From: Argopecten irradians
Lineage: Eukaryota; Mollusca; Bivalvia; Pectinida; Pectinidae
DNA length: 64,000 nt
NCBI RefSeq assembly: GCF_041381155.1
Contig: NC_091137.1
Span: forward strand, 20,939,655 to 21,003,654
Direction of reading: 5' to 3'
Below the pieces are notes generated by a model. The model saw nothing but the letters and a program-made list of their open reading frames with translations, was not told the origin of the DNA and did no database searches. How positions within the stretch are numbered: position 1 is the stretch's first letter; each line of letters opens with the position of its first letter. Both the position numbers and the translations under genes were made by a program. Positions 12,396 to 62,680 of this stretch are shown here, one piece after another.

Positions 12396-14726
12396 ATGTA
12401 TGAGGGGAAAAATATCCACTATTCCTCATCGGACAAAAAGCCTTTGTGTTCATTCAGCTCAAAAGTCTGTAACCAACACCGACTCAATGGCTATGCTTTC
12501 TGTGTCCGGCACATCTTGGAGGACCCAACAGCACCCTTCAAGAGGTGTGCCTACATGGCCAAATCCAGCAAGCAGAACTGCACACAGGCTATTCCCGAAC
12601 ATGAAAACAGACCGTGAGTGTTGTTGTGGTTTACTACATGCATGTTTTGTAACTATACCTTAGATACTATTCTAAAAAATATCTTGCAAGCTAAAAATAT
12701 GCATTTTGTATCTTAATCAGGTATTTCAAAGAAATTTCAACTCTTATGTACTTATTCAATGTTTTTCAATTAAATGTATAAAAAATATTTCGTAGGTTTG
12801 CAGATTTCTTCAAGGATTTATACAATGATATATCTTAAGTAAGGAAATAGCACAAACTCCTTTTAATTTTGTACTTGCACCATAATAATTGAAAGGTAAA
12901 TTTGATACTTATCAATGTTTTCTCTTTCGTTTTAAAGGTACTGTAACAATCACATGCAGGTACTGGGCATGCTTCCACGGAAGGAGCGGAAGAAAAAGGA
13001 AAAAGAGAAAGAAAAAGACACAGAAAAACCAGTTATTGAAGATGTACCATTAACTCCAGTACATTTTGAAAACAAAAATGTGTTTAGTAAAAATCGTGTC
13101 AAACCAAAGTTTGAAAATAGAAGACTTCATATGTCAAAACTACACATGAACAAAGACAGTTCTGGGCTGGACGACCCAGAGGATCCATATGCTTTCCCGG
13201 ATACTGGAAATGATTCCGCTCCGAAGGTCAACAGCAGTCCCTTGTCGTCTTCAGTCAATATGGAAACACTTTCAGTGACAACTTCCAACTCTAGTGGGGG
13301 GAAATCCCCAGGAGGGGGCGTTGATCAAGGTGGGGTCTCCTCAATAGCAAAACTTTATCCAGAACTGGCAGAGAAGCTAGAAAAAATTAAACCTAAGTTT
13401 GACATGGGGAAAGTGAAAGACAAGGGTAAAGAACGAAGTTCAAGAACAATGAATATCCTCCAGTCAAAGATAGCACAAAATCGAATCAAAGACAAAATGA
13501 AGAAAAATCAAGAGTCATCATCACAGTCTCAGTCTCCATCTCATGGCTATAACAACTGTGTTCCAAACAGTATCAGTTTGTCACATAGCACTCCTAATCA
13601 CTCAGATCATGGCGACATGGGAGATAAAACACCTAACAGTGATCAAGATGGTATGAGTCCACTAAGCTCAAATGGTAGTATTTTACCTGTGCATACTCAT
13701 AATCGTTTAGGTTCACATCCTCTACCATCACCAACACATGACATGAAACGCTCATCACAGACTCCCTTCATGATGATGCAACAACAAATGTTACCTGGCC
13801 CAGGCATTCCTCCTCCACCTCGAACTCTCCCGCCAGAGGGGATTCCCCATGGTATGCTTGCCGAGAATCTACCAGGAATGCCTCGTGCAGACCATCTTCC
13901 TCCACATTACTCCAGAGTACATCACAATCCTACAATACAGCACGCTGAAAAAGTGGGGCCAGTCTTAAACAATCTCCAGCAGGAAGCTTTGGATCATTTC
14001 CCAATTCCTACAAGCACGCTACCTCTACATAGTCTTTCCCATGCTCAGCATCATCATCATCAGTTAAACAACATGGCTACGCCGACTCCTGCATCTCCAC
14101 ACCTCTATCCTCCTCCTCACCGTCCCTTCCATCCTTCCCAACAGCCTCACAGTACATCTCAAAGAGAGGTACATCCTCCATCAGTCAACACACAACCTTT
14201 ACCCCCACCACCTCCCCCTTACAGAAAGTATCCTGCGAGTGTTTCCATGACAATGGCTCCAGCAGTGACAATTCCGACAGTGTCTACAAGTATGTTAATG
14301 TCACCAACAGTTAATACATCCACTTCTCATCAGGAGGTGCGGCTACAAAAGGAACATGTTCATGAGCTTCCGCCACCTCCCCCATACTCCTCTACAATGT
14401 GTGCTACACCTCAACCGCCAATAGTTACAAAGAGATCAAAAACTAAGCCTAAGACATGGTCTATAAGTGCTCCTGTGATATCCAAATTATTTTCATCAGA
14501 GGCTTTGATGAAACCTCGTTCGCTCAAAAATGTTCTACCTGAAGCAGATGTGTCTACGAGGCTACACAAGAAGAAGGCAGCTATCAAGTACTATTTGAAC
14601 TATGTCAAATGGAAAATGCAGAACCACAGCTATCTTGGTTCAGGTAAGTATCAAAATAATACTTTCCGAAAATTTGATTTGTTTGTTCTTTACAGTCAAG
14701 CTTGTTTGTAAAGGCCTCCTTAAGGG

Positions 14727-14771
<45 letters not shown>

Positions 14772-17700
14772 AGCCTTTATAACCGAATTAAATGGTCTTT
14801 ATAAAGTATAATAAAACATATCAAATTGTATGTGGAATTTCTCAATTGAGACTATACAGGCAACAGCAGATTTTACCGACAGTGAGTACATATGTATTGT
14901 CTATATTTGTGGTAATGTCAACAGCTATGTTATTGATACATATTCAGTAATCCTATTAAATAATACTTGTGCTATCCGTCCTTGTATAACATGCATTTGT
15001 GGGTCATTTTGTTCTATAGGGCTAAGAAGTTCAGATGAGGAAGCTAGTGATGACGAAAACAGTGATTTATTACCCTGGCAACCAGAATGGTTCACCGTCT
15101 CATCAGATGAAGAAGCCAATGAAGATGACGATGAGTAAGTCCTGTTTAAACTTGAATGACCTGGCTTTATGACTACACATACATGCTTATCAAATGTTTG
15201 CATTATTTCTACAAATATTTCTCGCTATGTTTGTTCTGTTCTATCCCACTTCGATATGTGGGTGACTTATATCTAGGCAACAGTAAATCAAACTAGTAGT
15301 GATATTACAATTCCTTTGCAAATATATATATAGAGAATGCACATGATGTTTTGATACGATCTAAGGCTGATACTTCTGATGCCTACTTTAAATCCCTGAT
15401 GCATTCTTGATTTTGGTGTTCAATTTTCTAAATGATAATACATATTCTGATTTCAAAGGGTGTACATGAAATCATTTGGAGAGGACTAAGATAGGCTATG
15501 CCTGATGTCCTATTCCATTGAAATATCAACATTGGTTTTTGTCAATGAAATATTTAGAAATTTGTGAACTCAAAAACATTCAGCAGATATTTACCTAAGA
15601 AATCTAGATCTGTTATAGCTTGTATTGACACAGAACATTTACAAAGAGATCTCCAAATTTGAATGAGCTTGGTAGATATGTTATCATGTAAAATATATAG
15701 TCATACCAATAGGTTATAGGAATTATTTAATGCATTTTAAAATTGGTGTTTTAACAGCCAAGATGACTCGTTGAGGACAGCAAAGCTGGCTTTAATTCGG
15801 GCGAGGCTGCGACGTAGATGTTTCCAGTCTCGCAAATCTTACCGTGCCAATAGTTCTGAGCGACTACGACAGAAGACAGCGACTCTAGGTCTGATAGAAG
15901 CTGCACGGGAACAGTCTAAATGTGCTGTTAAAGCTTTACATGAAATCAATTGCTATGAGACCCCTCCAGTGGATGTGTAAGTTCACACCTACGAGTTTTT
16001 AATCATTCTTTTCTGCTGTATAATGCTAACAGCTTTGGCATGCTTCAGTGATATAGCACTATAAAAAGGGCAACAGTTCCACTATACAACAAGACACAAC
16101 ACGAACATACCACAGTCTCCCACACTGCATTCATGGGAGGCCGTCATTACATGACCCTGGCTGTTAATAGGGTTTAAAATAATCAAACAAACAAATTGAA
16201 TTTCAAAATTTTTCCAATGCTACAGAAAACATTTATATAATGTAATCATCATTGCTTGAAAGAAAAGTATGTAGGAGTAGAAATATTTTCATTTGCGACA
16301 GATTGTGTATTGGATAGCACCAACTTGGAAAATTCTGTTTCTTCAAACCTATGTTTCTGACCAGTATGTATACAGAATCTTTAATGAATCAAGACGCTTC
16401 ACAAGAAATACAAATGGGTTTGAATTTCTCTGTAAATCACTTTTAAAATGTGAGTTCCATTTAAGAAGATTTTGTGGTTGTAGGTACAAGATGAGAGGGT
16501 TACTGGAAAGACAATGCTGCCATAAGAATGATGATGAGGTTCAATGTGAAAATGATGTTCTACCCTACGCTAACCACTGTTTGAAACGTATCCTTTTTAA
16601 ACATGCTAATGTTTCGCTAAAGTTTAAAGCAAGCTCAAATCGGGTGTAACCGTGGTAAAATTCAAGCTATCTCAAGTGTAAGGTACTAAGAGTATTGTTA
16701 ATGAGGCTCCTGATTGACTGTATATAATTAGATAATATATAGAATTGATTTACCACTTTAATTTTGCCCTTGACCAATGTCTTCAGACATTATGTACAAT
16801 GTTGATCAACAACTGTTTGACTACTGCACTGCTAAATTTGCTGACAACACACAGTGTTGTGTTCCTGTCCATGACTTTAAACACGAACTTCCTCTTTGTA
16901 TGGAGCATGGTCTTAAAGCTGTAAGTGTGCAAAATATTTGAATTCATGACATAGAAATTCAAAAACGTAAATAAGAATCTTGAAAATGTATGTCATGTAT
17001 CTCCAAAAGCAGAATTCAAGAACATTACCAATATTGGACTGTGAATTTATAGAATTCGTTTGAATAATAATAAAGATTGTCATTCTCATATGATATTTAG
17101 ATAAAACATCAATGCATTTAATTCTAAGTTATACTTAAAAATGAATATAAAATAATTAAAGAGAAAGAAAACTGTTGGTAAGAGTTCAGCGTTTAGTCAA
17201 AAGTAGACACTGTGTTTGTATTGCTAAAATTCTTACTGTTTATCTCTAGGACACATACTTGGATGGAGATGCCGAATTTAAACCAAAGCGACCTAGGAAA
17301 AAGACGAAACCATCTGCACTTACGCGGCCACCAAAGAAAGGAAAAAAGAAAAAGAATCAGAGGAAAAATATCCGTCCCCAAAAACCGTCTCCACCATCAG
17401 AACCAACTGGTTTGACAGGTAGATTTTATTTACAGAATTAATCAAGAGTATCACTATGATTCCAGTGGAATGCACATGATGTTTTGGTACGATCTAAGGC
17501 TGATATCTGTGATGCCTACTTTATATTACTGATGCATTTCTTACATGTATTTAACTTGCCAGCTGTTCACCACATGTAACTTTGCATTTTGCATTGTTCA
17601 TGACTGCTCTGAAATGTGTTTTTGAATTTGAATGTATATGTGTGCAAGTGCAGACAAGGGCGGGACTAAATACCAAACTAGTGCTGATAGAGTTTTTCTG

Positions 17701-20700
17701 GCAAAGGTTATCAACGTTAGATTAAGGTTCATGAGATAAATCTAATTCTGTCTTACCCTTTTTAGGTCATCTGACCCAAAGGGTCAGGATGACCTATTGT
17801 CATCATGCATCGTCCGTCGTCGTGTGCCGTCCGCCGTGCGTACACTTTTCATTCAAACACTTCTTCTCAATAACCAAAAGGTCCAGGGTACTGATATTTG
17901 GCCTGTAGCATGCTGGGATGAAGGGCTACCAAGTTTGTTCAAATGAATGACCTTGACCTTCATTCAAGGTCACAGAGGTCAAAAGGCTAAAATCTTTGAA
18001 TGACTTATTCTCAAGACCCAGAAGGTCAAGGGTACTGATATTTGGCCTGTAGCATGCTTGAATGAAGGGCTACCAAGTTTGTTCAAGTGACCTTGACCTC
18101 CATTCAAGGTCACAGGGGTCAAATGGGCTATAATCTTCAAACGACTTCTTGAGAATAACTAGGAGGCCTAGAGACCTGATATTGGGCCTGTGACATGCTT
18201 GGATGAAGGGCTTCCAAGGTTGTTCAAATGACCTTGATCTTCATTCAAGGTCACAGAGGTCAAATATGCTAAAATCTTTAAACGACTTGCTAATAGTCAG
18301 ATGACCGTTGAGGCCCATGGGCCTCTTGTATTAAATCCAATTATTTGTATTTTAGCATCAATTGAGAACTATTAAAAGTGTTCGGCATTAATTCATTCCA
18401 TGAGCTTCAAGGACTTCAAATATTGGCCACTATTTGTAAAAACTTTTTAAAATGAAATTTGGAGATTTGATTTTAAAGTTTACGTAATGTCAGGGATATC
18501 ATATTGCATAGAAACAGAATATAGTACTCCTGGAAAGAACATTAAAGAAAAGCTGTATCCACATATATATGAAATTATCAAAGTAAGAGTAATTTTGATT
18601 GCATTACCATTTATGGTTACAGTTCCTGATACAAAAGAAACAAATATAGTTCATTTATAATTTTACCTGCTGTTGCTTAAAGAAAAGGTCAATCCTATTG
18701 TACAAATGCTATTCTGTATAATGCCAATCCTGTTTCCTTATAGAATGCACATGATGTTTTGATACGATCTAAGGCTGATACCTGTGATGTCTTCTTTATA
18801 TTACTGATGCATTCTTTTCAATTTATTTATTTGACTTCTTTTCTGATTTGAAGTTTGTTATCTCTAAATGTTATGTATCTAAATACTTTGACTGGCAAAA
18901 TATGAATTTTATTTTAAATGGCATAGTTTGAAACTTAATGTCTTGTAACAGGAATTGTCTGGATTTTGTTTCCTAGAAATTATGGATATTTTTTTCACCT
19001 TTGTAGAAATGCCTGCAATCGATACCAGTCTGTTGGATAATGATGAGAAGGCAAACACATCTGATGCAGACATGTCGGGAATGTCCAATCCAGATTTGAG
19101 TCAGACTGGCTCAGAGACGGAGATGTTTAACGAGGTATCGGAATCTGATGTAATGCCGGACAAAGTGGCTGAGGACAGTACGGATATCAGTAAAGCTGAA
19201 GAAGCTGTAGAATCGCCAAAGGAAACATCGGACAGACCAAGTCTGACCGAATTACCAGAGGCTGCTCTCAGCGCATTAGGTGACCTTTATATTCTTAAAG
19301 CAGTACGATGATAATATGTTCAGATGAAATTTCTATTATGTGTTTAAAAGGAGCATGGAATGTAATATTTCTGCCTTTTAAAAGCATCGTAACTATATTT
19401 TGCTGATGAATTACATCCATGAGTGTGACATCACTCAGTGTTAAAGTCAAACATGAATAAAGTTGCACCCAAGGGATGGATAAACTAGGTGTAATCAAAG
19501 ACTATTAAAGAGATAGACAGATTTCTATTTAGATTTAAACATACTTAGATTATATATGAGTATAATGCCAATTAATTATACTTTGTATTTGCCAACTGTA
19601 CAGTATGTAAAAACAAGTTTCAATTATAAAAAAATTGCCTGACTTCAATTCAACAAAAACTGTCATGATGAAGAACTAGTCAAATGAGTGTAGTTAGGCG
19701 TAAGTTCTAAACATTTAATGAAAGCCAAAATGGCCATCAAAATTATGAATACTGGCTGCTGTTTTCAGAAAACAATGATTATTTGGGCAAAACTTCATTT
19801 GCAATATATCTTAGGTAAGACAGATGACCACTTCATTAGAGATCAATATATAGTGCATAAGTTGTCTTATTGAGGACCGTATATTGACTGTATATGTTAA
19901 TTATCATGAGTAAAACAGGAAAATTACATGCTTGATCTGGTGATTAAGGCAGGTAACTGATGTGAACGTTCAGACTGGTTTGACTGTACATATATGTTTG
20001 ATTTAATTCAACAATGATGTAAAGACTATACCAAATCATTGTGGAAAGAATTAATATTCATGAATATTTTTACATTCTTTAGATATGGAAAGAGGTCTTG
20101 AATTGCCTCTTGAACAGGCATCTCGCCTACTTGAAGAAACTGACTTCCAAGATGTATTCAACAAAATCCCTGATGAAACATTTGATCTTTTCTCAGGTAA
20201 GCTGATAGAATTGCTACTTCCAGGGACAACACACACCTTGTCCAGATAATAATTAATAGAATCTTACATAGGTCTGTCAAGTTGACAGGGATATCTCATC
20301 CCGAGGTTTGCCGAGAATTGATGGCAAAAACCATTCACCAGAGTTAACATACCCCCAATCACGTGACAGACCCATGTTTGATTATTTTCCCACATACTTA
20401 AAAAAAAATGATGAATGGCGAAAATTCAGTTGTTTAGAATTTTTTTCATAGCGTCATCATGAAGGGTGTCACACTGAGTAATGTTTAGAAACATTTTCAT
20501 AGTGTCATCATGATGGATGTCATAATACGTAATGTTTAGAAACATTTTCATAGTGTCATCATGATGGGTGTCATAATACGTAATGTTTAGAAACATTTTC
20601 ATAGTGTCATCATGATGGGTGTCACAATACATAATGTTTAGAAACATTTTCATAGTGTCATCATGATGGATGTCATAATACGTAATGTTTAGAAACATTT

Positions 20701-23700
20701 TCATAGTGTCATCATGATGGGTGTCACAATACATAATGTTTAGAAACATTTTTCATAGTGTCATCATGATGGATGTCATAATACGTAATGTTTAGAAACA
20801 TTTTCATAGTGTCATCATGATGGATGTCATAATACGTAATGTTTAGAAACATTTTCATAGTGTCATCATGATGGGTGTCATAATAAGTAATGTTTAGAAA
20901 CATTTTCATAGTGTCATCATGATGGGTGTCATAATAAGTAATGTTTAGAAACATTTTCATAGTGTCATCATGATGGGTGTCACACTGAGTAATGTTTAGA
21001 AACATTTTCATAGTGTCATCATGATGGGTGTCATAATAAGTAATGTTTAGAAACATTTTCATAGTGTCATCATGATGGGTGTCACAATACGTAATGTTTA
21101 GAAACATTTTCATAGTGTCATCATGATGGGTGTCACACTGAGTAATGTTTAGAAACATTTTCATAGTGTCATCATGATGGATGTCATAATACGTAATGTT
21201 TAGAAACATTTTCATAGTGTCATCATGATGGGTGTCACAATACGTAATGTTTAGAAACATTTTCATAGCGTCATCATGATGGGTGTCACACTGAGTAATG
21301 TTTGTAACATTTTCATAGCGTCATCATGATGGGTGTCACAATATGTAATGTTTAGAAACATTTTCATACCGTCATCATGACTGGTGTCACAATGCGTAAT
21401 GATGTCATTAACAGTGGTTGCTGCATGAATTCTCTTTTTCTTACCCCTTTTACAAAGCAACTGTAGAATAACCCTGCCAAGTAAAAGAGAAAACACCTAA
21501 CTTATTTCATGGTAGTGAGCATTCAGATTCTAAGCTTCCTATTGGGCCCCCATTTATAACAGTGATAGACTATAATTCATTGCTCAATGAACCAGCAATG
21601 CAGTTGGCAGGGGCGTAGGAAGCGGGGGGGGGGCAGGGGGGGCAACTGCCCCCCCGTTCCCCAGGACGGGGGGGGCAAACATATCTTTTTGCCCCCCCAT
21701 TTTCGCCGACTGAAATGTTCTAAAAATGCATATTTGAAAGAAAAAAGGTCCTCCTGCACATTTTTCGTTCTTCATTCTAAAAAATTTTCCGCTGCGCGGC
21801 GCATTTCCTAAAACGTTCAAGCACATAATGTACAAACTTTTAATAGTAGAAATTCAATACACATGAACTACACTGAAAATGTCCATTAAGGGATTCTACG
21901 TACTACATTTGTATTTCAAAAACAATCTCTCTTAAAAGATTACTTTGATTATATGTCTTAGCAAGACAATTAATTCATTATTATTTTGAGTTACAAAACA
22001 ATGTGCCGATGGTGTTCAGATCGAGCAGGGTTGCACATTGATATAACGACACAATTATCACAATTATCATTTCTAAATGCAGGTTACTTTAAATCGAAAA
22101 ATTACCATGGTAAGAAAGCTTTAAAATCATTAAAATACATCGTGAAACTCATCTCAGCCATTCTAAATCGTAATTTTTTTCCCGGGGGAGACCCCCCGAC
22201 CCCCCAAACACCAAAATCTCACGTCTTCGGGCGCTCATTAATTCATCAAAATACACCGTAAAACTCATCTTAGCCATTCTAAATCGTAATTTTTTCCCGG
22301 GGGAGACCCCTGGACCCCCCAAACACCAAAATCTCGCGCCTTCGGGCGCTCGCATATAAATCTCACGTCTTTGGGCGCTCAAAAATTCATCAAAATACAT
22401 CGTAAAACTCATCTTAGCCATTCTAAATCATAATTTTTTTCTCGGGGGGTAACCCCCGGACCCCCCAAACACCAAAATCTCGCTCTCGCAAAATCATCAA
22501 AATGCATTGTAAAACTCATCTCAGCCATTCTAAATCGTAATATTTTTCCCGGGGTCGACCCCCCGACCACAAAATCTCGCGCCTTCGGCGCTCACACGCT
22601 AATTTGGCCAATTTGCGTATTCGTTAATTTCCTTTTAGCGACCCCAGTGTCAATAAATGTGTACAAGAATTATATTTAATGATATATATAAAAAAATATA
22701 TATAAAGTATATATGGTTGTATGTTGCGGGGGGGGGGGGGGGGGGGGGTGGTTTGCAAAATATTGAGGACCTTTGCCCCCCCATTAAGTTTCATCTTCCT
22801 ACGCCACTGGTTGGCAGCTGCTGAAGTGTTTATGTAGCATTTGCCTTGTATTCAGGTCAATTCAAGGGGTTTGAGATCCTAAAAACGATGTGGGCTAAGT
22901 CTGATTTACTGTCTATTAATCCCACCTTTCGATGATTGTGACGTCATAAAAATCATGTCAAAATATGACATTACAGGGCATTTTGGGGCTGATTTTCGGC
23001 CCCATTCCCCATGGCAAAACCTCTAAAATTTTCTCAATTCAAGCCTTAAATTTCCCAAAATCAAAATTTCTTGAAAACTTTCCAAAAATATCGCATGAAC
23101 TTAGTTGTTTAAGACTTTAAATGTTCGTGAATTGGCTTCAGAAAAGTCTATATACTACATTGCAAATAAAAAAAATGTATTTGTTATGCTTTATTTCATA
23201 ATTTTTCCCAAATCCTGGTTTTGTCACACATTTTCCCAAATTCAAAGCCACAGGCCCCATTCCCAAAGCAGTGAGAAAAAGCCCTGCGTTACAATCTGCT
23301 GAAGATGGGACTATTTGACGGTAAATCATACTTTACCTGTCTCATCTTAGGATCTAAACACCTGTATTGTTACTTTCCCTGCTGCAGAACACCTGATTTC
23401 AGGAAGTAGCTTCAAAAATACTGACATGTTATGTACCATATGAAATTAATGATTTCAAGGTCAGTCTTTGTGGCACTTCTATTTATAAGAAGCATGCATG
23501 TATATATATATATATGAATTCTTGATGCTCAAAAAGTAAAAAATCTTTATTTTCATCATTATTTATTTTCCACGCTGGTAAGTTTTATGTAGACTGATCA
23601 AATAGAACTGAGCAGACTGTTTTGCTGCATAGATAAATTATTTATTGTGTATTGTAGGTAAAAATGGTGATGCGATGATGCCGACCCATGAAGATGTGGC

Positions 23701-24889
23701 GGAGTTGGAACGTCACATAGCAGAAGCCAATATTGACATCAGTGCGGCACAGCAAGCAATTGAGAAACTTACCAATGCTAATGGGGGTATGGAATTAGAT
23801 GATGAACAGCTGAAACAAATAGCAGCGTCACTACTTGGGACTCCTGTGAACAATATGGCAGCAGGTAATAATGCTGCTCCTACACCTCCTGCCCCTGCTG
23901 CAACTTCATCAACTGGGGAATTGTGCAATGGAATATCACTTGATGGTCTGAATGATCATGATTTAAATGGAACCCTACCTGACAATGTGGTGAACAGAAA
24001 CTCTGGGTCTGGCCAGGCTGGGGTTAGAGTGACAGTCAGTAGTTCTACAGGTATGTACCAGTCCACTGGCTTTAACCCCAAGGTGGACAGACGTACATTA
24101 GTCTATAACAGGGATGGACTGGTAGCATTAAATGCTGCTGTGGTAAGCCCACAGAACGCAGGTCAACCACCACCACAAAGGTTCCCCCATCAATCTATGG
24201 ATTTACAGGGGGCACCAATGGTAGCCAACCTGCCTCAGTCATATATCACACATCAAAACGCACTGCCAAATTTCACAGCAGCAGGACAAGTGTTGTCAGG
24301 GCAACAATCTAATTCTCATCAGCAACAACAACAACAACAACAGGTGTTCTTACAACAACAACAACAAAGGTCTCAGTCGCATGACTCCATACAAAGGAAC
24401 ATTCCCAATATACCTCTTCAACAGATAGTGTCTGTGTCTAATGTGTCCAGTATCCGCATGCCTAATATAAACTCGGTGGGGAATCATTTAGGAATAGACA
24501 ACCTTCAGAGTACAATGGTCACCTCAGACAAAGGTCAGAGTTCCTCTCCCCAACAGACCTCCCATCCTCACATCACAACCACCTGGCCAGCCAATCTAGC
24601 TAATGTAATCAGCTTCCAGAATGGATTCCCTATACACAATACAGGATCTTTTCAGCATGTTAATGACATTGCAGCCAGTCTCAAGTTTGGTGTGGGCTCC
24701 CAGCGTGTGTTACCCAGTGAAGTGAAACAGGATATCACACAGCAGTACCATCAAGTGATGGGCTCACCACATTCCGCACAGACCAGTGTCCGGCCGCCAT
24801 CTCAGGCAGTGTACGAGGGTCAGCAGGTCCGACCCCCATTCAGTAGACTGTCCCCACCTTTTACTGCTTCAACAGGAAAAGGCTCCTAG
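12396..24889 (+). CDS. INO80D: INO80 complex subunit D, complete ten-exon CDS
   Basis: Coding exons: 12396-12613, 12938-14643, 15020-15134, 15758-15976, 16484-16587, 16787-16920, 17250-17418, 19007-19279, 20083-20196 and 23658-24889 (TAG stop). All introns are GT-AG, all phases join, and the sum is 4,284 nt or 1,427 aa. The MYEGK start is chosen because it matches the vertebrate INO80D start; a TAG acceptor at 12357-12359 implies an upstream 5' UTR exon. Two zinc-binding modules of the C3Hc3H type are visible: Cys18/25/36-His39 with Cys51/62/75-His78, and Cys764/774/785-His788 with Cys801/811/825-His828. A basic RKERKKKEKEK stretch follows the first module and a PRKKTKPSALT basic motif follows the second. 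Exon 2 encodes a long Ser/Pro/His/Gln-rich disordered region and exon 10 has polyQ runs. The family subunit is about 1,000 aa in human, so this one is expanded in disordered parts. It is a metazoan-specific accessory subunit of the nuclear INO80 nucleosome remodeller. Confidence 0.93.
14731..14770 (+). repeat. Homopolymer of about 40 A in INO80D intron 2
   Basis: An uninterrupted A run lies 87 bases after the exon 2 donor. It may be a slippage tract or the tail of an old retroposed sequence; no body or target duplication is recognisable upstream of it. Confidence 0.9.
15335..15406 (+). ncRNA. Candidate C/D-box snoRNA, copy 1 (INO80D intron 3)
   Basis: This 72-nt sequence has a terminal stem GAATGCA/TGCATTC, a box C ATGATGT (15343-15349), an internal box D' CTGA (15367-15370), a C'-like TGATGCC (15377-15383) and a box D CTGA (15396-15399) next to the closing stem. 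This order and spacing are those of an intronic C/D snoRNA guiding 2'-O-methylation. It lies in sense orientation in intron 3, 351 nt before the acceptor. The 14 nt upstream of D' (GATACGATCTAAGG) are conserved in copy 3 and, with one change, in copy 2, whereas the stretch between C' and D varies. I could not assign an rRNA or snRNA target. Confidence 0.75.
16087..16195 (+). mobile_element. SINE 3' part with AAAC tail (INO80D intron 4)
   Basis: CACAACACGAACATACCACA and GGGAGGCCGTCATTACATGA lead into CCCTGGCTGTTAATAGGG and an AAACAAACAAA-type tail. The 'GACCCTGGCTGTTAATAGG' block is the same 3' tail as in the S1 SINE, while the body differs, so two SINE families share a tail, as expected when both use one partner LINE. 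The tRNA head is missing. Confidence 0.6.
17468..17540 (+). ncRNA. Candidate C/D-box snoRNA, copy 2 (INO80D intron 7)
   Basis: This second copy starts GAATGCACATGATGTTTTGG. Box C ATGATGT is at 17476-17482, D' CTGA at 17500-17503, a C'-like GTGATGC follows, and box D CTGA is at 17529-17532. The terminal stem is slightly weakened (GAATGCA against TGCATTTC). It begins 49 nt after the exon 7 donor. The guide-like block upstream of D' reads GGTACGATCTAAGG, one base different from the other copies. Confidence 0.7.
17764..18330 (+). mobile_element. Minisatellite-cored element, family A, copy 1
   Basis: It opens with AGGTCATCTGACCC and closes with GTCAGATGACCGTTGAGGCC then CATGGGCCTCTTGTA, so the ends form an inverted repeat (GGTCATCTGAC/GTCAGATGACC). 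Inside are three diverged units of about 120-130 bp sharing GGTACTGATATTTGGCCTGT and TTCATTCAAGGTCACAGAGG. The same ends flank a different tandem core at 43406-45816. It lies in INO80D intron 7 between snoRNA copies 2 and 3. The architecture resembles bivalve 'pearl' or Helentron-type non-autonomous elements. Confidence 0.7.
18743..18814 (+). ncRNA. Candidate C/D-box snoRNA, copy 3 (INO80D intron 7)
   Basis: This 72-nt copy has a perfect terminal stem GAATGCA/TGCATTC, box C ATGATGT (18751-18757), D' CTGA (18775-18778), a C'-like GTGATGT (18784-18790) and box D CTGA (18804-18807). The D' guide block is identical to copy 1. It lies 192 nt upstream of the exon 8 acceptor. It shares intron 7 with copy 2, and family A copy 1 sits between them. 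Confidence 0.75.
20432..21410. repeat. 51-bp minisatellite, about 19 copies (INO80D intron 9)
   Basis: The unit contains GTAATGTTTAGAAACATTTT followed by CATAGTGTCATCATGATGGG and TGTCA. Two subtypes differ at 'CACACTGA' versus 'CATAATAC'. Each unit has two palindromic cores (GTTTAGAAAC-like and TCATCATGATGA). The period is 17 codons, so one minus-strand frame stays open for hundreds of codons; that frame is an artefact. The two edges (about 20432 and 21360-21410) are the most diverged. Confidence 0.95.
21608..22809. mobile_element. hAT-like non-autonomous element, copy 2 (INO80D intron 9)
   Basis: It starts CAGGGGCGTAGGAAGC and ends CTTCCTACGCCACTG. It is flanked by GTTGG at 21603-21607 and 22810-22814, a possible 5-bp direct repeat; an 8-bp duplication expected for hAT is not clean. 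Facing polyG and polyC runs lie inside both ends. From about 22120 to 22600 the core is a tandem array of four units of about 110-130 bp sharing AAAACTCATCTCAGCCATTC and CGGGGGAGACCCC. No transposase is visible. A related copy is at 4471-5664. Confidence 0.7.
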
Positions 24890-41304: not shown

Positions 41305-44300
41305 ATGTCTTCGAGGCATGGTCGACAACAACAGGAGTTTGACTCTGACAAGTTACCAGTGTTGGGTGATGATGGGAGTGGTGGTGGTTACTATAACAAC
41401 AACCATGTTCAGTAAGTCCATACTTAAAGTAAGATGTAGGTGAATTATTCAATCCAGATACAAATTAAATTCAATATTGGTCAGTGTTTTTCTTATACAA
41501 TTTTATTGTTTTACGCAATTATAATATTACAAAACAGTATTTAAGCCATGCAGTCATTGTCTACAATATGGCATTAATATGTTTCATGGATGGAGCAAAA
41601 GATAAACATATACTAAGAGTGAGTGTAAAATTGATATAAAAAGATTATAATATTTTAAAAAATCAGCAAAATGAAATAGAAAATTAAGCAAAACAGATAT
41701 TTTGTACTTGATATTGAAAATGCTAAAAAAGATATGGCATAATGATATGTATCTAACAGCAATAGTGACAATTGTTAGTGGCTTCAGGCCTACAGCTGTA
41801 ACACTCAGTATACAATAATATGTATTATACATCAAATGCAGCATTAGTTGTTCAAAGTTTGGCTGTGATGAATATGAGCATGTTAGAAACAGGAATAAAA
41901 CAAGTTTAGCCTATATTCTGACAAACAGCCGTCTTTAGTTTTGTCAAAAGAAAGTTATTGGTATCATTAGTAGAAATGGAAGTAGTACAATATGAATCTA
42001 TAGCATTCATAGGAGTTTTGTCTTCGTTTTTGTATACAGTAGATTGAGGATTTCTGTTAAGTATACTATATCGATTTATAGAGAGGGGCAATTTGTCACA
42101 AACTCTACTTGTATGATGCTTTTGTTCAAATAGGAACAGATCATTAGGACCTCGTGCCTTTCCCTCTGGAAGCAGACCAGGATCGAGTGGTAGTCGACGC
42201 ACACCCACCCCTACCAAACAGATATCACTACAGGCTGTCAAGAGGAAAGAGAACCAGTAAGTAGACACACTTAAAATCATCAAGTTTCAGTCATAGAATA
42301 TTTGTATGACTGTGTCAAAATATGATAGTGTGTATAGGTGTGATGTCAATATTTTGTTTTATTGTTTGAAATTGAAATGATCTCTTTTAAAGGCCCACTA
42401 CCTTTCCGAAATGGCTTTTAATTTCTAAAATGGGAATGTGAAACAAGATCGATAATTTTGTAGAGTCCTAAAACTTATTAACTTACCGTTAATACTACAT
42501 TTATCATCACCTTCTGAACGATTTGATTAAAATAAATAAAATGTTTATTTTCATAACGCGGGTCGTCTTATGTTTCCCGCCGTCGTTGTAAATACCGCGC
42601 AGTAGTTGACTTTCACTGCGCCAGACGGCAAAACAGCGAATGATTCTCCACTGTTTTCATATATTACGCAGGAAATCTTGCATATGTTTGGTGTCGTAAC
42701 CTTATTTTAGGTCATCGGTATGCATTTTCTGATGTTATTAATGTTTTTTAACAAACCTTTATATTTTGCTCCGGAAAGGTAATGGGCCTTTAATACTGAC
42801 AATTGTCATTTCTATTGAAAATGTGGCTAGATAACCATATAGTTTACACTTTGACACAATGATTTTAATGTTGTTGTTTTTTTATCAGTTGTTAGATCTA
42901 TGAAAGTCTCTGATTATCAGAGGCGTGAGCAAATTTCATGTTGTCCATCTTTGTGCCTCATCCATTTAAACAATTTGCACACTCAAATTAGTATAAATGT
43001 CAGAAACTCACAGGTCATATAAAATACAGAGAATTCAGCTTATTTGAATAAGTCATTTTCCAGAAGAAAATATGCAAACAGATAAAAAAAAGTATTCGAA
43101 TAGGCGGAGATGGATTTTTACCCTCCGTGACAGATGTGCATAGTGTACATGTCAGGGCTTTGCACTGGCTGTTCTATAAATGGGATCCTCAGATACAATA
43201 GGGTCCCGTAATGAAATTGGAATAGAGTTTCAGAAAAAAATGGTTCTTTTGATTTTCTATGCTTATAATGGATATGGGGATGCCCTTAACAGAAACTCTG
43301 CATGTATGTAAAAATCTTACAAAATCTAGACCTTAATTACTGGATTCAGAGAAATATGAAAGGAGTATGATCAGTTAGACAGAGTACATGTTCAAGTTCT
43401 CTTTAGGTCATCTGACCGAAGGTAAGGATGACCTATTGTCATCGTGTTTCGTCCGTCGTCGTGTGCCGTCCGCCATGCGCCGTGCGTCGTGCTTAAGACT
43501 ATTTATACAAAAGCCTACTCCTCCTTAACCCTTGAGCGGATTACATCCATATTTGGTGTGAAACATCATTGGGGAAGGACAATCATATTTTATATAAATG
43601 AGCCTGATCCAACCCCTAGGGGCTGAGGGGTGGGGCCCCAAAAGGGCAAATTTTCTTAATTTAAGCTTTTAAATCCTACTCCTCCTTCATCCTTGGACAG
43701 ATTACATCCATGTTTGGTGTGAAACATCATTGGGGAAGGATAATCATATTTTATATAAATGAGCCTGGTCCGACCCCTAGGGGCTGAGGGGTGGGGCCCC
43801 AAAAGGGCAAATTTTCTTAATTTAAGCTTTAAAATCCTACTACTCTTTCATCCTTGGATGGATTTCATCCATATTTGGTGTGAAACATCATTGGGGAAGG
43901 ACAATCATATTTTATATAAATGAGCCTGGTCCGACTCCTAGGGGCTGAGGGATGGGGCCTAAAGAAGGGCAAATTTTCTTAATTTTAGCTTTAAAATCCT
44001 ACTCCTCTTTCATCCTTGAATGGATTTCATATATATGTGGTGTAAAATATCATTGGTGAAGGACAATCATATTTTATATAAATGAGCCTGGTCCAACCCC
44101 TAGGGGCTAAGGGGTGGGGCCCCAAAAGGGCAAATTTTCTTAATTTACGCTTTAAAAATCCTACTCCTCCTTCATCCTTGGACAGATTTCATCCATGTTT
44201 GGTGTGAAACATCATTGGGGAAGGACAATCATATTTTATATAAATGAGCCTGGTCCGACCCCTAGGGGCTGAGGGGTGGGGCCCCAAAAGGGCAAATTTT

Positions 44301-47300
44301 CTTAATTTAAGCTTTAAAATCCTACTCCTCTTTCATCCTTGGATGGATTTCATCCATATTTGGTGTGAAACATCATTGGGGAAGGACAATCATATTTTAT
44401 ATAAATGAGCCTGGTCCGACCCCTAGGGGCTGAGGGATGGGGCCCAAAAAAGGGCAAATTTTCTTAATTTTAGCTTTAAAATCCTACTCCTCCTTCATCC
44501 TTGAATGGATTTCATATATATGTGGTGTAAAATATCATTGGGGAAGGACAATCATATTTTATATAAATGAGCCTGGTCCGACCCCTAGGGGCTGAGGGAT
44601 GGGGCCCAAAAAAGGGCAAATTTTCTTAATTTTAGCTTTAAAATCCTACTCCTCCTTCATCCTTGAATGGATTTCATATATATGTGGTGTAAAATATCAT
44701 TGGTGAAGGACAATCATATTTTATATAAATGAGCCTGGTCCAACCCCTAGGGGCTAAGGGGTGGGGCCCCAAAAGGGCAAATTTTCTTAATTTACGCTTT
44801 TAAATCCTACTCCTCCTTCATCCTTGGACAGATTACATCCATGTTTGGTGTGAAACATCATTGGGGAAGGACAATCATATTTTATATAAATGAGCCTGGT
44901 CCAACCCCTAGGGGCTGAGGGGTTGGGCCCCAAAAGGCAAATTTCCTTAATTTTAGCTTTAAAATCATACTCCTCCTTCATCCTTGAATGGATTTCATCT
45001 ATATTCGGCGTAAAATATCATTGGGGAAGGACAATAATATTTGATATCAATGAGATAGGTCCGACCCCTAGAGGCAGAGGGGCGGGGCCCCAAAAGGGGA
45101 AATTTTCTTAATTTAAGCTTTTAAATCCTACTCCTTCATCCTTGGATGAAATTAATCCATATTTGGTGTGAAACATCATTTGGGAAAGACAATCATATTT
45201 TATATGAATGTGTCTGGTCCGACCCCTAGGGGCTAAGGGATGGGGCCCCAAAAGGGCAAATTTTCTTAATATTAGCTGGCCCACTTCCTGTTTTCAGGTT
45301 TCGGTCTCTGTTCTCAATGAAAATTGGTCTATAGGGGTTTAAATTGATGCCGAACAACATGCAAACATTTACATAAAGATTTTGGTATTCCAAGATGGCC
45401 GCTGGCCCACTTCCTGTTTTCAGGTTTCAGTCTCCGATCTCAAGGAAAATTGGTCTATAGGGGTTTAAATTGATTCAGAAGGGGGAACTTTAGGTGAGGA
45501 CAATCATATTTTATAAAGGACCGAGCTAAGACCCATGGGGATAGTACGGCAGATGTCCAAAATGGAAGCTTTGCTGAAATTTGCCTTTAAAATCTGACTC
45601 CTCCTTATATTAATCCATGAATGGGTTACAACCATATATGGATGAAGGGCTACCAAGTTTGTTCAACAAATGACATTTACCTATTTCAGAAACTTACATA
45701 TTCAACTAAGGAGTTCCTCGTATTGTTTATATTAATCGTTAACCAATACTTTATACTGTGACTTTGTTGTTTTGTGCAATGAGTCAGATGACCGTTAAGG
45801 CCCATGGGCCTCTTGTTTCTTAAGATATTAATTACAATGTGAGCTAAAGGAAAGAGTTACATTAATTCCATTCCATAGTACTCAGTGGATGGTATTGCTG
45901 AAAAATTGAGTGGTATAATGTATTATTTTAGATAGTGATTCACTAATATTCAGCTTCGTCATATGATCTTTAAAATCCTCTGGTATTTCTTTAGAAAAAA
46001 GGAACCTTTTGATGATGTGGATTTGGCAGAACTCAATTCTACACTAAAACTTGAATCAGAAAGGTAAGTGTACATGTCATTGACTTTTATCTATTCCTCT
46101 TCATGTGTAACACATACATGTAAAATATATTGAAGTAGATTTAATCTTACTGATCCTTGGTAAGTTTTATATAAATGTCATGTAAATATATTATGACATC
46201 TTTATGTAAAAATCGAATATCTGTAATTAGATATTAAAAAAGTAAGTGTGATTAAAATAAATATAGAAATGATAAAGGAAAATAAGTTGCATCATTCAAA
46301 TAATGACATTGCATAATCTTTTATTTATACATATGTACTACAATGTCATATAGTTAATTAATAGTTGGGCAAAGCAAGACTAAAGTCGGTTAAAATGGTG
46401 ATAATATATCTAGTATAAGTTCTTATGAAATAGAAAAATAAAATCTCCTATAAAAATTCCTCTGCGTGCAAAGAAGTTAATTTATGTTATGGGAATCCTA
46501 ACATGTCCTTCCGGCTGGCTATGTCTGTGTTGACATTTCAATGTAGCCTCGCTTTCAAAGAGTTATTTTTAAAAATATGCTAAATTTACACGGGGATTTT
46601 CCATAATTTCAATGGTCAAAACTAGACAACGTAAGTAAAACTGGGTCGCCGTTTTGATATGTAAGGACTTTTGGAAGGCCAAAGTATGCATTTAGACTGG
46701 TTTTCTTTGCCCGACTATTCACTTTAAGCATATAAAAAAAAAGATTCCAGATACATTACACTATGATTGTAAAATATACCCTGAATGTTACAGAGCTGAC
46801 TTTATTTCGAAACTATAAATTGCATGATACAGTTTTTCACTCCTAAGTTTGTTTTTCACACCATAAACTGCATGATGCAGTTTTTCACTCCTAAGTTTGT
46901 TTTTCACACCATAAACTGCATGATGCAGTTTTTCACTCCTAAGTTTATTTTTCACACCATAAACTGCATGATGCAGTTTTTCACTCCTAAGTTTGTTCAT
47001 GACAGTATTTCTGATTAATATTTTTCCAGGTCGTTTCTGGAGAGAGAAAATTCGAATACCGACATAACAAAAGCCAGTGGTGCCTCTGGTTTTACTGTCA
47101 AGTTACCAAATGGCTACGGAGCCAGACCTAAGGATGTTTCAACTAAGCAAGCTGATGATTCAGAAATTGAGGAAGGGGAGAGAGGGATGAGAAGAGACAA
47201 GTGAGTCACATTAGACACTTTGTTGTACAGTGCCTTATCATGTCATGGTTGTCTTTTCTAAATGTTTTTAGCCACCTTAGTCAAACACAGTGCTTAATTT

Positions 47301-56418: not shown

Positions 56419-57126
56419 GGTTTTTTTTCAACAAGTCATGTACCAGCTCCAGATCAAACAGTATAAGTCTAGTGCTTATCATCCAGAGTCTCAGACATTG
56501 AAGAATATGATGAGATCTTATTGTTTTGAAAACAAAAGAGATTGAGACGAAGGTATACACATGTTGTTGTTTGGCGTCAGAGAATCTGTACAAGAATCTC
56601 TTGGTTTCAGTCCCTTTGAACTTGTATTTGGACACACTGTACGTGGTCCTTTGAAAAATTTGGACTGTTACTCAAACCAAAATGAAAACATGGTATGATA
56701 AAGATGCCCGTGCAAGAAGTTTTGATCCAGGTGACAAAATTTTGGCTCTATTACCAATACCGGGTCAGCCTTTGCAAGCAAGATAGTTTGGACCTTATGT
56801 TGTTGAGAAAAAGGTCGATGATGTTAACTACTACATTGTACAAACTCCAGGGAGGCGCAAGAAAACTCAATTATGTCATGTTAATATGCTTAAGAAATAT
56901 GTAGATAGAGAAGAGAGCAAGACCTCTCAACCTATTACTACTTTGGCCTCTGTACCATCACAAAGTGAAAGTACAGCTGTTATTTGTAAATTAGACTTAG
57001 ATGGTGGTGTACAAGATGTAGGTTTAGACTGTGGTGTTAAGTTACGGAACTCAGATGTGCTCGCGAACTTGGACAAGAAACTATGTCATCTATCGAAAAA
57101 GGAACGAAATGAACTGAAGATCTGAT
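56419..57126 (+). pseudogene. Ty3/Gypsy integrase 3' part and linker, degraded
   Basis: The segment starts inside the integrase core (QVMYQLQIKQYKSSAYHPES), continues with LLFGVRESVQESLGFSPFEL and VFGHTVRGPL, and passes through a C-terminal domain into a linker ending DKKLCHLSKKERNELK. Between HPESQ and TLKNMM about eight codons are missing relative to the family, including the place where the catalytic Glu of the DDE triad normally sits. Stops and frameshifts occur at about 56543, 56695 and 57118. The 5' LTR, gag, protease and most of the integrase are absent; the 46-bp satellite abuts the break. Confidence 0.8.
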
Positions 57127-57743
57127 ACTTGAGTATAAACATTTATTTCCGGATACACCAGGCAAAACAGATGCTATCTATCACGACGTGGATGTGGGGG
57201 ATGCGACACCTATCAAGCAACATCCTTACCGTGTCAATCCTTTGAAAGAAGAACTTTTAAAGAAAGAAATTCAATACATGTTGGACAATGATATTATTGA
57301 ACCAAGCAAAAGTGAATGGAGTTCTCCATGTGTTCTGGTGCCAAAGCCAGACAAGACATACCGATTCTGTACTGACTTCAGAAAAGTATACCCTGTCAGT
57401 AAAACAGACTCTTATCCAATTCCAAGGATTGACTCGTGTATTGACAAAGTTGGCAAAGCCAAGTACGTAAGCAAGTTTGACCTGTTGAAAGGTTATTGGC
57501 AGGTGCCATTAACAGAAAGAGCTAAAAAAGTGTCGGCATTTGTAACTTCACAAGGTTTGTACCAGTACAAAGTTATGCCGTTTGGTACGAAGAATGCCCC
57601 GGCAACATTTCAACGTCTTCTTAACAGCGCGATATCAGACCTGGAAGGCTGCGATGGATACATCGATGACGTCATCAATTACCATGACGCGGGATTCGCA
57701 AATTCTTCGAGAGACTCACCACCATGAAATTGACTGTAAACTT
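57127..57743 (+). pseudogene. Ty3/Gypsy reverse transcriptase, 5' part (before the LINE)
   Basis: From the linker the reading moves by a one-base shift into the RT: EYKHLFPDTPGKTDAIYHDV, then IKQHPYRVNPLKEE, FCTDFRKVYPV, SKFDLLKGYWQVPL and the catalytic YIDDV (about 57657-57671). Shortly after YIDDV the frame is lost by a small deletion and a stop at 57725. The sequence resumes beyond the inserted LINE at 61964. Because integrase precedes RT, the order is INT-RT-RNaseH. Confidence 0.88.
57727..57743 (+). repeat. 17-bp target-site duplication of the LINE, left copy
   Basis: AAATTGACTGTAAACTT is identical to 61964-61980. On the minus strand it directly follows the short A-rich 3' end of the LINE (GATACAAAAAAA). 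Confidence 0.95.
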
Positions 57744-58338: not shown

Positions 58339-59590
58339 TTACATATTGATTAAGCTATTCCATTTATTCCAATCATTGTCTAATTTGTAAATATGAGTGT
58401 CACCTTTGCTGACTGCAGTATATTTTTCTGTGAAGTATGCTTCCTTTATAAGTTTAGTTAAGGCACATACTGATAAATTCTTTTGATAACATCTTGTGCT
58501 ATATATGTATTGTTTTAATATTAAAATAATCATATTGTCTACCCTATTATATAGTATTGGTTGATTAAATAATCCAAAAATGAATGTTTCTTTGTTAAAG
58601 GCGAATGGGATGAGTAATCTATCTAATAGGGATTCAAAGTTAATTAAAAAATTCTGTACCTCTATACATTCCCATAACATATGCACTATTGTCTCTATTT
58701 CCGTTTTACAACGATAACAATTAGCACTTTCAGCAAGCCCAATTTTAGACAAGAAAGAATTGGATGTTAAAATGTGTTGGTTGACTCTATATTGTAACCA
58801 ATGTAGTTTTGAATTTTTAGTTGCACCAAAAGGATTGTTATATATTTGTTTCCAAACATCATCATCAAAGTTAAATAAATTATTCCATTTGGATTTCCCG
58901 GTAGAGATTGTAGCATTTTTATTTAAAATGTTGTAAAAATCTTTCGTACCATTTTTATGCTTCAGAAAAATTTCTAAATTTTTAGGTATGTATGGATAGC
59001 TTAGCAATGTATTGGATATATCTGGAGTGAGGTAATTTCTTATTACTGTGGTGATGCCTTGAAATTTAAGAAAGTTTGTTCTAATGTTGAATTTTTGTGT
59101 AAATTCCTCGTAAGTGAATAGTGTATTAGAAGAATAATTTTTAATCATGTCATTAATGATAATAACACCCTTTTGATACCAATCTTTGTAAAAAAACTGC
59201 CTTATTTCCTATCTTTATATTATTGTTATACCAGATAGGAGTTTTTAATATAACATCAGGCTGGTCGTTGATAATAGACTCTTGAGAATTTAGTTTCTTC
59301 CAGGCCAAGAAGACATCTTTCCAGAATAGATTTGAACATTTTTGTTGACAGCTGTAAATGTATTCAGTTCCACAATTAATCAGTTTATCTTTATCAGCAT
59401 ATAAACTTAAAAATATTTGCCACTTGCTTTCTGTTGTGTAAAGTCTACGGATCCAAGTAAGTTTCAATGCATCAATGAAAGATTTTATGTTTATCATTTT
59501 TAGTCCTCCATCTGGATAGTTTCTAGTTATAACATCTCTTTTAATTTTGTCTGTTTTGCTGTTCCATACATGTATAATTATACAACTCAA
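58339..59590 (-). pseudogene. LINE ORF2 C-terminal region, two frames
   Basis: Two consecutive open frames (59590-59153 and 59148-58339) continue ORF2 after the RT. The first has RNYPDGGLKMINIKSFIDAL and WKDVFLAW. The second has LHWLQYRVNQHILTSN and a zinc-knuckle-like CYRCKTEIETIVHMLWEC (Cys-x2-Cys...His-x4-Cys), then a stop after NKWNSLINM. This C-terminal layout is common in L1/Tx1 elements. A one-base change in a T run near 59195 separates the frames. Confidence 0.85.
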
Positions 59591-61853
59591 AATTCAATTT
59601 TTTGATAAAAACATCATCTGGATTTGGCAAGGATATAAAAAGGTGGTTAAACTGTGATATGAGTAGTGATTTTATTATATTTATTTTTCTTATTGGTGTT
59701 AAAATTCTTCTGTTCCATATCTTAATAAGTGCCTTCAGCTTTACCAGTTTTTTGTCATAGTTTAATTTAGGAATTTGGTGCAAATCCACATGAAATTGTA
59801 TTCCAAGAAGTAGAAAAGAATTATTTCCCCATTGCAAATTTAATTGGGGAAAGTAAATATCTTCACTATATTTCTTGTCGCCAATCCATATAACCTGAGT
59901 CTTATTGACATTAATTTTTAGACCTGATATTTTGGCAAACCTAGTGAGTTCATCTATGGACCCCTTCAAAGATTTCCTTGTGCCATCTAAGATGAGAGAA
60001 GTATCATCTGCATATTGAGAAACTAATAAGGGACAGTTATTTACATTTATACCACAAATATCTATGTTATTTCTTAATCTAATGGCCAAAACCTCTGCAC
60101 ACAAAATGAATATATATGGGGCTATGGGATCTCCTTGTCTACAACCTCTATTGATATCGAAAAATGGGGATAGATTGCCGCCTTGATTTATAGCAGATAT
60201 TGTATTATTATGAAAAGTTTTCACCCAATTTCTAATATCTTGACCAAAATTTAAAAAATTCAGTACATTATCAATAAAAGTCCAACTCACTGAATCGAAT
60301 GCCTTTTCAAAATCTACAATTAAAAGCATGCCTGGTATGTAATGTTCCTCAGCATAATGCATGACGTCATATACTAATCTAGAATTTTCCCCAATAAATC
60401 TGCCAGAAATAAAACCTGTCTGATCTGAATTTATTAATTTATCTAATACTGATTTTAGTCTATATGCGATTGAGCCTGAAGCAATTTTATATACAATGTT
60501 AAGAAGACAGATGGGTCTCCAGTTTTTCAAAAATTGTCTTGGCTTATCTCCCTTGGGTAAGCAGGTAATGATCCCTTGTCTTTGTGTTGAAGATAAATTT
60601 CCATTTTCAAAACCATAGTTTATTGATCTAACAACAAATGTTCCTAACTGCTTCCAGAAAATTTTAAAAAATTCTACGGTAAATCCATCTGACCCAGGGC
60701 TTTTGTTGTTTTTCATGCGTTTTAAAGTGTTGGATGCTTCAGAATATGTGATCTTTCCTTCTAATGTCATAGAATCTGCATAGTTTAGCTTTGGAACTGG
60801 ACATTCACTCAAAAATTCATCTAGATTAATGTTTTCAATATTGCAGTCACTAGAATATAACTGTTTATAGTACTGACTTATTTCTCCAAGTATATCTTTC
60901 TGATTTCGAATTATTTCACCATTATCTTTTTCTATTACAGGGATAATTTTAGAGACAAAGTTCCTATTCTCAAGATTTAAAAAATAATTTGACGGTTTTT
61001 CACCCTCCTCTACCCATTTTGCCTTTGCCCTAATGATATTTCCTCTAATTTTGGTAAGTCTAATTTTCTCTAAATCTTTCTTTTTCTCCTCTAGTTCTTC
61101 TACATTTAACTCTTCATTACTTTCTAATTCAACTATTGTTTTTATGAGATTATTTTCCTGTTCCGAATGCTTTTTTTTCTTATATGATGCAAATGATATT
61201 GTTTTCCCCCTTATTTCTAGTAGAAGTGTTTCTAAAAACAGCTGATCGTTAATCTGAAACTGGATATCCTCATCTGAAATAGTGTGAATGTTTAAAGGAT
61301 TATAAATGATATGTGCATATTGTTTTTTAATACCTAAAATATGATCAGTTATTGTTTTTCGATAATTTTCATCATATAAGAGCGAGTTATTAAACTTCCA
61401 GAGTCCCTTCCCTCTCTTAAACTCATTAAACTTTATTGAGATTGTTGGTGTGGAATGGTCGGATCTATATCCAGGTTCAATGTTTGTGGTTGTTATATTT
61501 CCTAACATATTTTCTGAAACTAGGAAAAAATCTAAACGGGCTTGTTTAATAGGATTACTTCTTCTCCATGTATATCTTCTGTTTTCAGGATGGTGTTCTC
61601 TGTATACATCTACTAAGTTTAAATCATCAATTAATGTTATAACTTTTTCTCTAGCTCTAGGGTTGTTTATATTTCTATAATTCTTATCATAATCCAGACT
61701 AGTGTTGAGTACTAAATTAAAGTCTCCACAAATGACATAAAATTCATTATTATATTCTTGCACTGCATCTGTGATTTGCTGATAAAACTCTGGTTTATCC
61801 AAATTTGGGCCATATATATTAATTAAGGTAACTTTTTTGTCCCCTATCAACAT
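59541..61853 (-). pseudogene. LINE ORF2: endonuclease 3' part and reverse transcriptase
   Basis: A 770-codon open frame. The N-terminal part is the second half of an APE-type endonuclease (INIYGPN; VICGDFNLV; RLDFFLVSE; GYRSDHSTPTI). The central RT domain has NNKSPGSDGFTVEFFK, NWRPICLLNIVYKI, LLIVDFEKAFDSV, GCRQGDPIAPYIF and the catalytic QYADDTSLIL. Such proteins nick DNA and copy LINE RNA at the target. The domain order and the later CCHC-like motif fit the L1/Tx1 group. The frame is broken upstream by an extra or missing A in an A7 run and downstream near 59560, so this copy cannot make full-length protein without frameshifting. Confidence 0.9.
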
Positions 61854-61963
61854 ATTCAGTGCTATAAAATTACCATCAGTATCTTTTTTTCATTTAAGAC
61901 TTTTGACTCAAAATCATTGTTTATTAAGATCGCCACCCCTCTAGAGTTAGATCTGAAAGAACT

Positions 61964-61980
61964 AAATTGACTGTAAACTT
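61964..61980 (+). repeat. 17-bp target-site duplication of the LINE, right copy
   Basis: Identical to 57727-57743. It lies at the 5' truncation point of the LINE and is also part of the Gypsy RT coding sequence. Confidence 0.95.
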
Positions 61981-62680
61981 GCTTAAATGTGAATTTTGTC
62001 ATGCAACTGTTGATATTTTAGGCCATGTTGTTGGACAGGGGCAGGTAAAACCTGTTCAGGCCAAAGTAGAAGCAAATATAGATTTTCCAACTCCTGGAGG
62101 CAAGAGAGATCTGATGAGATTTCTTGGTATGGCTGGATTCTACAGAAAATTTTGTCAAAATTTCTCTGTTATAGCAGCTCCACTTACTGCTTTGTTAAAG
62201 AAAAATGTTAAATTTGTCTGGTCAGACGAATGTAAGTCTGCCTTTGAGAAATTGAAAGCCATACTATCAAACTCACCAGTTTTGACTGCTCCAGATTTTA
62301 ATAAACAGTTTAAACTGTTTGTTGATGCCGGCGATGTAGGTGTTGGTGCTGTTTTGATGCAAGACGGTTCTGAACGAATTGGCCATCCAATTTGTTATTT
62401 CTCGAAAAAGTTTGACAAACACCAGAGAAATTATTCCACCATTGAGAAAGAATGTTTAGCGTTGATTTTGGCCTTGAACCAATTTGATGTGTATCTCTGC
62501 ACTACAGTTGTGCCTGTGTCGGTCTTCACCGACCACAACCCTTTGACATTCATTGGGAAAATGAAAAACAACAATTAAAGAATTCTCAGGTGGAGTTTGA
62601 CTTTGCAAGAGTACAATCTTGACATCAAACATATAAAAGGGAAAGACAATATTCTGGCTGATACTTTATCAATGATTTAA
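61964..62680 (+). pseudogene. Ty3/Gypsy RT 3' part and RNase H (after the LINE)
   Basis: Starting with the right copy of the 17-bp duplication, the frame reads LTVNLLKCEFCHATVDILGH, RDLMRFLGMAGFYRKFCQNF and then the RNase H domain: LFVDAGDVGVGAVLMQ, YSTIEKECLALILALNQFDV and FTDHNPLTF. A single TAA at 62576-62578 interrupts it, after which the same frame continues (LRWSLTLQEYNLDIKHIKGK, DNILADTLSMI) to a TAA at 62678. No integrase follows; pol ends after RNase H, as expected when integrase is upstream. Confidence 0.9.

Follow-up and report, generated by a model that had tools for sequence, protein, structure and literature searches.

What are the three closely similar sequences of about 72 nucleotides (nt) that lie in an INO80D-like gene of the bivalve Argopecten irradians, and which RNA, if any, would they act on? 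The 64,000-nt stretch analysed here (contig NC_091137.1, positions 20,939,655 to 21,003,654; hereafter the window) had been described in an earlier note as holding three intronic copies of a candidate C/D-box small nucleolar RNA (snoRNA), with a guide element before box D' that was left unassigned. Our analysis assigns both a family and a target to this guide. Each copy is in all likelihood a box C/D guide RNA that is encoded within an intron and belongs to the snoZ17/SNORD4 kind (18S position 121), and judging from its sequence it very probably directs methylation of 18S ribosomal RNA (rRNA) at a site that is also methylated in humans.

Three box C/D units and their distribution

Direct reading of the window together with an ungapped alignment of three 75-nt segments bears out the three sense-orientation snoRNA-like copies: 63 of the 75 columns are invariant (mean column identity 95%), and the copies agree pairwise at 64, 65 and 67 of 72 bases. 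The flanks agree at only 15-17 of 72 bases upstream and 16-26 of 72 downstream, so the similarity ends at the unit edges. Boxes C, D', C'-like and D occur in this order, closed by a terminal stem, in every copy, as listed below (window coordinates; snoZ17 E-values computed on stretches of 121-141 bases).

15335..15406, plus strand: snoRNA copy 1 (Rfam snoZ17 39.5 bits, E 2e-6)
15343..15349, plus strand: box C, copy 1 (ATGATGT)
15355..15366, plus strand: D' guide, copy 1, 12 base pairs (bp) to 18S CCTTAGATCGTA
15367..15370, plus strand: box D', copy 1 (CTGA)
15376..15382, plus strand: box C'-like, copy 1 (CTGATGC)
15396..15399, plus strand: box D, copy 1 (CTGA)
17468..17539, plus strand: C/D-box snoRNA copy 2 (Rfam snoZ17 39.8 bits, E 1.6e-6)
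17476..17482, plus strand: box C, copy 2 (ATGATGT)
17487..17499, plus strand: D' guide, copy 2, 13 bp to 18S CCTTAGATCGTAC
17500..17503, plus strand: box D', copy 2 (CTGA)
17509..17515, plus strand: box C', copy 2 (GTGATGC)
17529..17532, plus strand: box D, copy 2 (CTGA)
18743..18814, plus strand: C/D-box snoRNA copy 3 (Rfam snoZ17 40.3 bits, E 1.1e-6)
18751..18757, plus strand: box C, copy 3 (ATGATGT)
18763..18774, plus strand: D' guide, copy 3, 12 bp to 18S
18775..18778, plus strand: box D', copy 3 (CTGA)
18784..18790, plus strand: box C', copy 3 (GTGATGT)
18804..18807, plus strand: box D, copy 3 (CTGA)

Box C fits the consensus RTGATGA in six of its seven bases. The terminal stem described earlier (GAATGCA/TGCATTC) pairs fully in copies 1 and 3, but in copy 2 its outermost pair is G-T; single-strand folding shows the stem, a result that is not diagnostic for C/D RNAs. 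An architecture scanner, applied to both window strands with tolerances chosen after the copies had been seen, returned four places, against one match in total among 40 simulated windows (first-order Markov; mean 0.025). The four are the three copies and a minus-strand place at 24497-24584, which lies opposite a plus-strand open frame (23633-24889) and is taken as chance. The significance rests on the full unit and not on the 14-mer before D' alone: with up to three mismatches this 14-mer is found 6 times in the window against 3.91 expected, and 18 of 100 shuffles reach 6, which is chance level. A three-copy model (R1) run on the window recovers the three copies; its only further matches have E-values of 1.2 and 3.

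A mobile element or a chance repeat resembling a snoRNA would be an alternative source of such copies; snoRNAs can be retroposed, and the second of the two host introns carries a tandem, seemingly dispersed repeat. This origin predicts many copies, and the prediction failed: a search with copy 1 through 845,758,899 bases (845.8 Mb) of the genome finds at least three places at E<=10, all of them these units, in place of the hundreds that the earlier note had named as grounds for a transposon. A transposon or high-copy repeat is rejected on this count. All copies have the orientation of the single gene that holds them, both flanks show no A-tail and no shared sequence past the RNA unit, and the units carry a guide of 12-13 bp whose register is right for a known site, all of which makes this alternative extremely improbable.

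The D' guide and its 18S target

Tested against 18S rRNA from the same genome, the D' guides form 12, 13 and 12 contiguous Watson-Crick pairs in copies 1, 2 and 3, respectively, above the minimum of 10 bp for a guide beside D or D', and the base at D'+5 faces the 18S position that aligns with Um121, the methylated uridine of human 18S (human numbering). The 18S complement, which had been thought too short to assign, is considerably longer than the eight bases noted earlier; that 8-base match probably belongs to a different 18S place, CCCTTAGATGTTCT (seen as the reverse complement in a grasshopper 18S primer), where by eye the pairing ends after 8 bp in mismatches and which we rejected as the target. 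The 18S sequence available was a 617-nt fragment, broken near 566 by a repeat, its last ~54 nt not being 18S; a second ribosomal DNA contig consists largely of N, and no 18S was found in the viral contigs, where it was also looked for. The broken 18S copy, on contig C16, stops at the repeat (L004 1955-2021), which is 98.5% identical over 67 nt to window positions 16037-16103 in a host-gene intron; the latter also resembles a place near RPL23A (L012), with 79% identity across 95 nt. The broken copy is either a ribosomal DNA pseudogene or an 18S carrying an insertion.

Ten columns of the 72-nt core vary among the copies, and none of them falls in the 12 guide positions or in the 20 positions taken up by boxes (C, D', D and, of C', the inner five bases); the chance of that invariance is 0.0016 for guide and boxes jointly and 0.14 for the guide alone. 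The block before D', reported earlier as almost invariant, is indeed exact over its 14-mer in copies 1 and 3, while copy 2 has one change, which is the thirteenth guide position and lengthens the 18S pairing. It is conceivable, but rather unlikely, that just one or two of the copies still function, the rest being decaying duplicates. In copy 1 the base before box D is C, not A, and the fold z against shuffles is the weakest (-1.56, compared with -2.93 and -3.94 for the other two), and the segments before D differ among the copies; set against this, all three have the same boxes C, D' and D, the same inner five bases of C' and the same 12-nt guide, in surroundings that agree at 15-26 of 72 bases. 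We consider that the copies probably arose by an old local duplication, boxes and guide being kept by selection.

Several observations weigh against reading the copies as box C/D guides of the snoZ17/SNORD4 kind. The last base of box C is T, not A, in every copy; the outer two C' positions (columns 43 and 49) differ among copies and were excluded from the box count; the snoZ17 scores, 39.5-40.3 bits, all lie below the gathering score of 44, and a gathering-level Rfam scan of the window gave no match. The segment before box D has no run longer than 5 bp in the 617-nt 18S fragment, and a D-box element acting as a second 18S guide was rejected on this result. Since that segment is also variable while guide and boxes are invariant, D' is supported as the working guide, in line with the earlier proposal of guiding through D'.

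The guide and its rRNA site differ together from the Rfam consensus and from human 18S, respectively. Human 18S reads CCTTTGGTCGCT where the scallop reads CCTTAGATCGTA, a difference at 4 of 12 positions, and at all four the guide departs correspondingly, by eye, from the Rfam consensus AGCGACCAAAGu. Only one other guide difference exists, adjoining D', and it turns a mismatch of the consensus into a pair. This would be a clean case in which guide and rRNA site change together, matched at four of four positions, with the modified position constant. Two non-vertebrate 18S primers (freshwater mussels and grasshoppers) read CCTTAGATCG, and the 18S of this genome resembles the bivalve one; we predict that A121 is methylated wherever 18S reads CCTTAGATCG.

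From the general course of C/D snoRNA maturation (splicing, trimming, protein binding and guided methylation) we infer that these RNAs are transcribed, processed, bound by protein and active in methylation. The INO80D-like pre-mRNA would be spliced, and each RNA trimmed out of its intron down to the terminal stem. Core proteins (for box C/D snoRNAs these include fibrillarin, NOP56, NOP58 and 15.5K) would then bind the C/D and C'/D' motifs, and the element directly upstream of D' would pair with 18S CCTTAGATCGTA(C). The rRNA base opposite the fifth guide nucleotide from D' would be A121, and its ribose the predicted site of methylation.

The host gene and its surroundings

All three copies are intronic, as claimed earlier, but they occupy two introns in total. 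Copy 1 lies within intron 15135-15757, whose upstream splice site was placed by eye; copies 2 and 3 share one intron, 17419-19006, copy 2 starting 49 nt past its start and copy 3 ending 192 nt before its end. The host features are as follows.

12447..12614, plus strand: first zf-C3Hc3H domain of the host (G000:C4:20952101-20952268; 53.1 bits)
15758-15976, 16484-16587, 16787-16920, 17250-17418 and a further one from 19007, plus strand: host exons, one frame, no stops
16789-16908, plus strand: second zf-C3Hc3H domain of the host (PF13891; E 2.2e-12)

We call the host INO80D-like, following the earlier note. INO80D is characterized by two zf-C3Hc3H domains with a long proline-rich region between them, and KANSL2 shares the domain. 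A long exon (12936-14643) lies between the two domains of the host, and a third genome place with the domain is G000:C4:40306090. The predicted domain layout agrees with INO80D, with KANSL2 as the domain-sharing alternative. Local duplication in a non-ribosomal-protein host, as suggested previously, is supported.

The scallop's own RPL23A was recognised from exon translations (locus L009). No match to model R1 was found in this locus, and its surroundings (L012 and L013, overlapping, 19,802 bases) gave no Rfam snoRNA at E<=0.5. For two weaker L23 loci, L010 and L011, the search used R1 alone. Near RPL23A, L013 4471-4591 forms a long hairpin that matches Rfam MIR5185 at 37.1 bits on one strand and 28.5 bits on the other, well short of the cut-off of 101.7, and is probably an inverted repeat.

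Between copies 2 and 3, at positions 17855-18288, a 141-nt unit stands three times in tandem and seems to belong to a dispersed element. Elsewhere in the window, 20431-21401 is a 51-nt tandem repeat (19 copies, 93% matches) whose minus strand is open as a repeated peptide, and 43509-45277 is a 162-nt tandem repeat (11 copies) with a 485-nt period too. A minus-strand open frame at 59541-61889 has endonuclease and reverse transcriptase domains of the long interspersed nuclear element type; it sits between plus-strand frames 56787-57727 and 61928-62578, by eye pieces of a long terminal repeat retrotransposon polyprotein.

Relation to known box C/D snoRNAs

At a permissive threshold, the best Rfam family for each copy is RF00266 (snoZ17). 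The match spans the model from end to end, interrupted between box C and guide by a 3-nt gap and following C' by an insertion of 2 nt. It reaches parts that do not pair with rRNA: the UGCA core of the stem, CUGAU at D' and the spacing from D' to C', which is free of gaps. SNORD91 (RF00580), whose target is 28S, is the second-best match for all three copies and has AUGAUGUUUU around box C in common with them, but it scores 9.4-15.1 bits below snoZ17 (E 0.00036-0.017) with gaps in the guide region. SNORD42A/B, hosted by RPL23A in human and chicken, differs in guiding position 116 (18S-Um116), and no copy matched it in Rfam at E<=10. A fourth locus from a pattern search (G000:C16:12341115) was rejected; it lies inside an open frame of 1008 amino acids encoding an arginine-serine (RS)-rich protein, and neither Rfam (E<=1) nor R1 (E<=10) gives a match there.

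The copies share with snoZ17, that is SNORD4A and SNORD4B, the C/D architecture, a length of ~71 nt, the UGCA terminal stem core, an intronic location, the use of the D' element as guide (the 5' element in chicken too) and the same 18S site. They differ in their host, which in chicken is RPL23A and here is an INO80D-like gene. One published account (PMC3511168) reports snoRNAs moving between broadly expressed host genes, so an INO80D-like address and local triplication fall within what is known of snoRNAs. At its gathering score, Rfam's snoZ17 model fails to pick up any of the three copies. The family itself, of the snoZ17/SNORD4 kind, is already known; what is new is the address, the copy number and the rRNA-matched sequence change.
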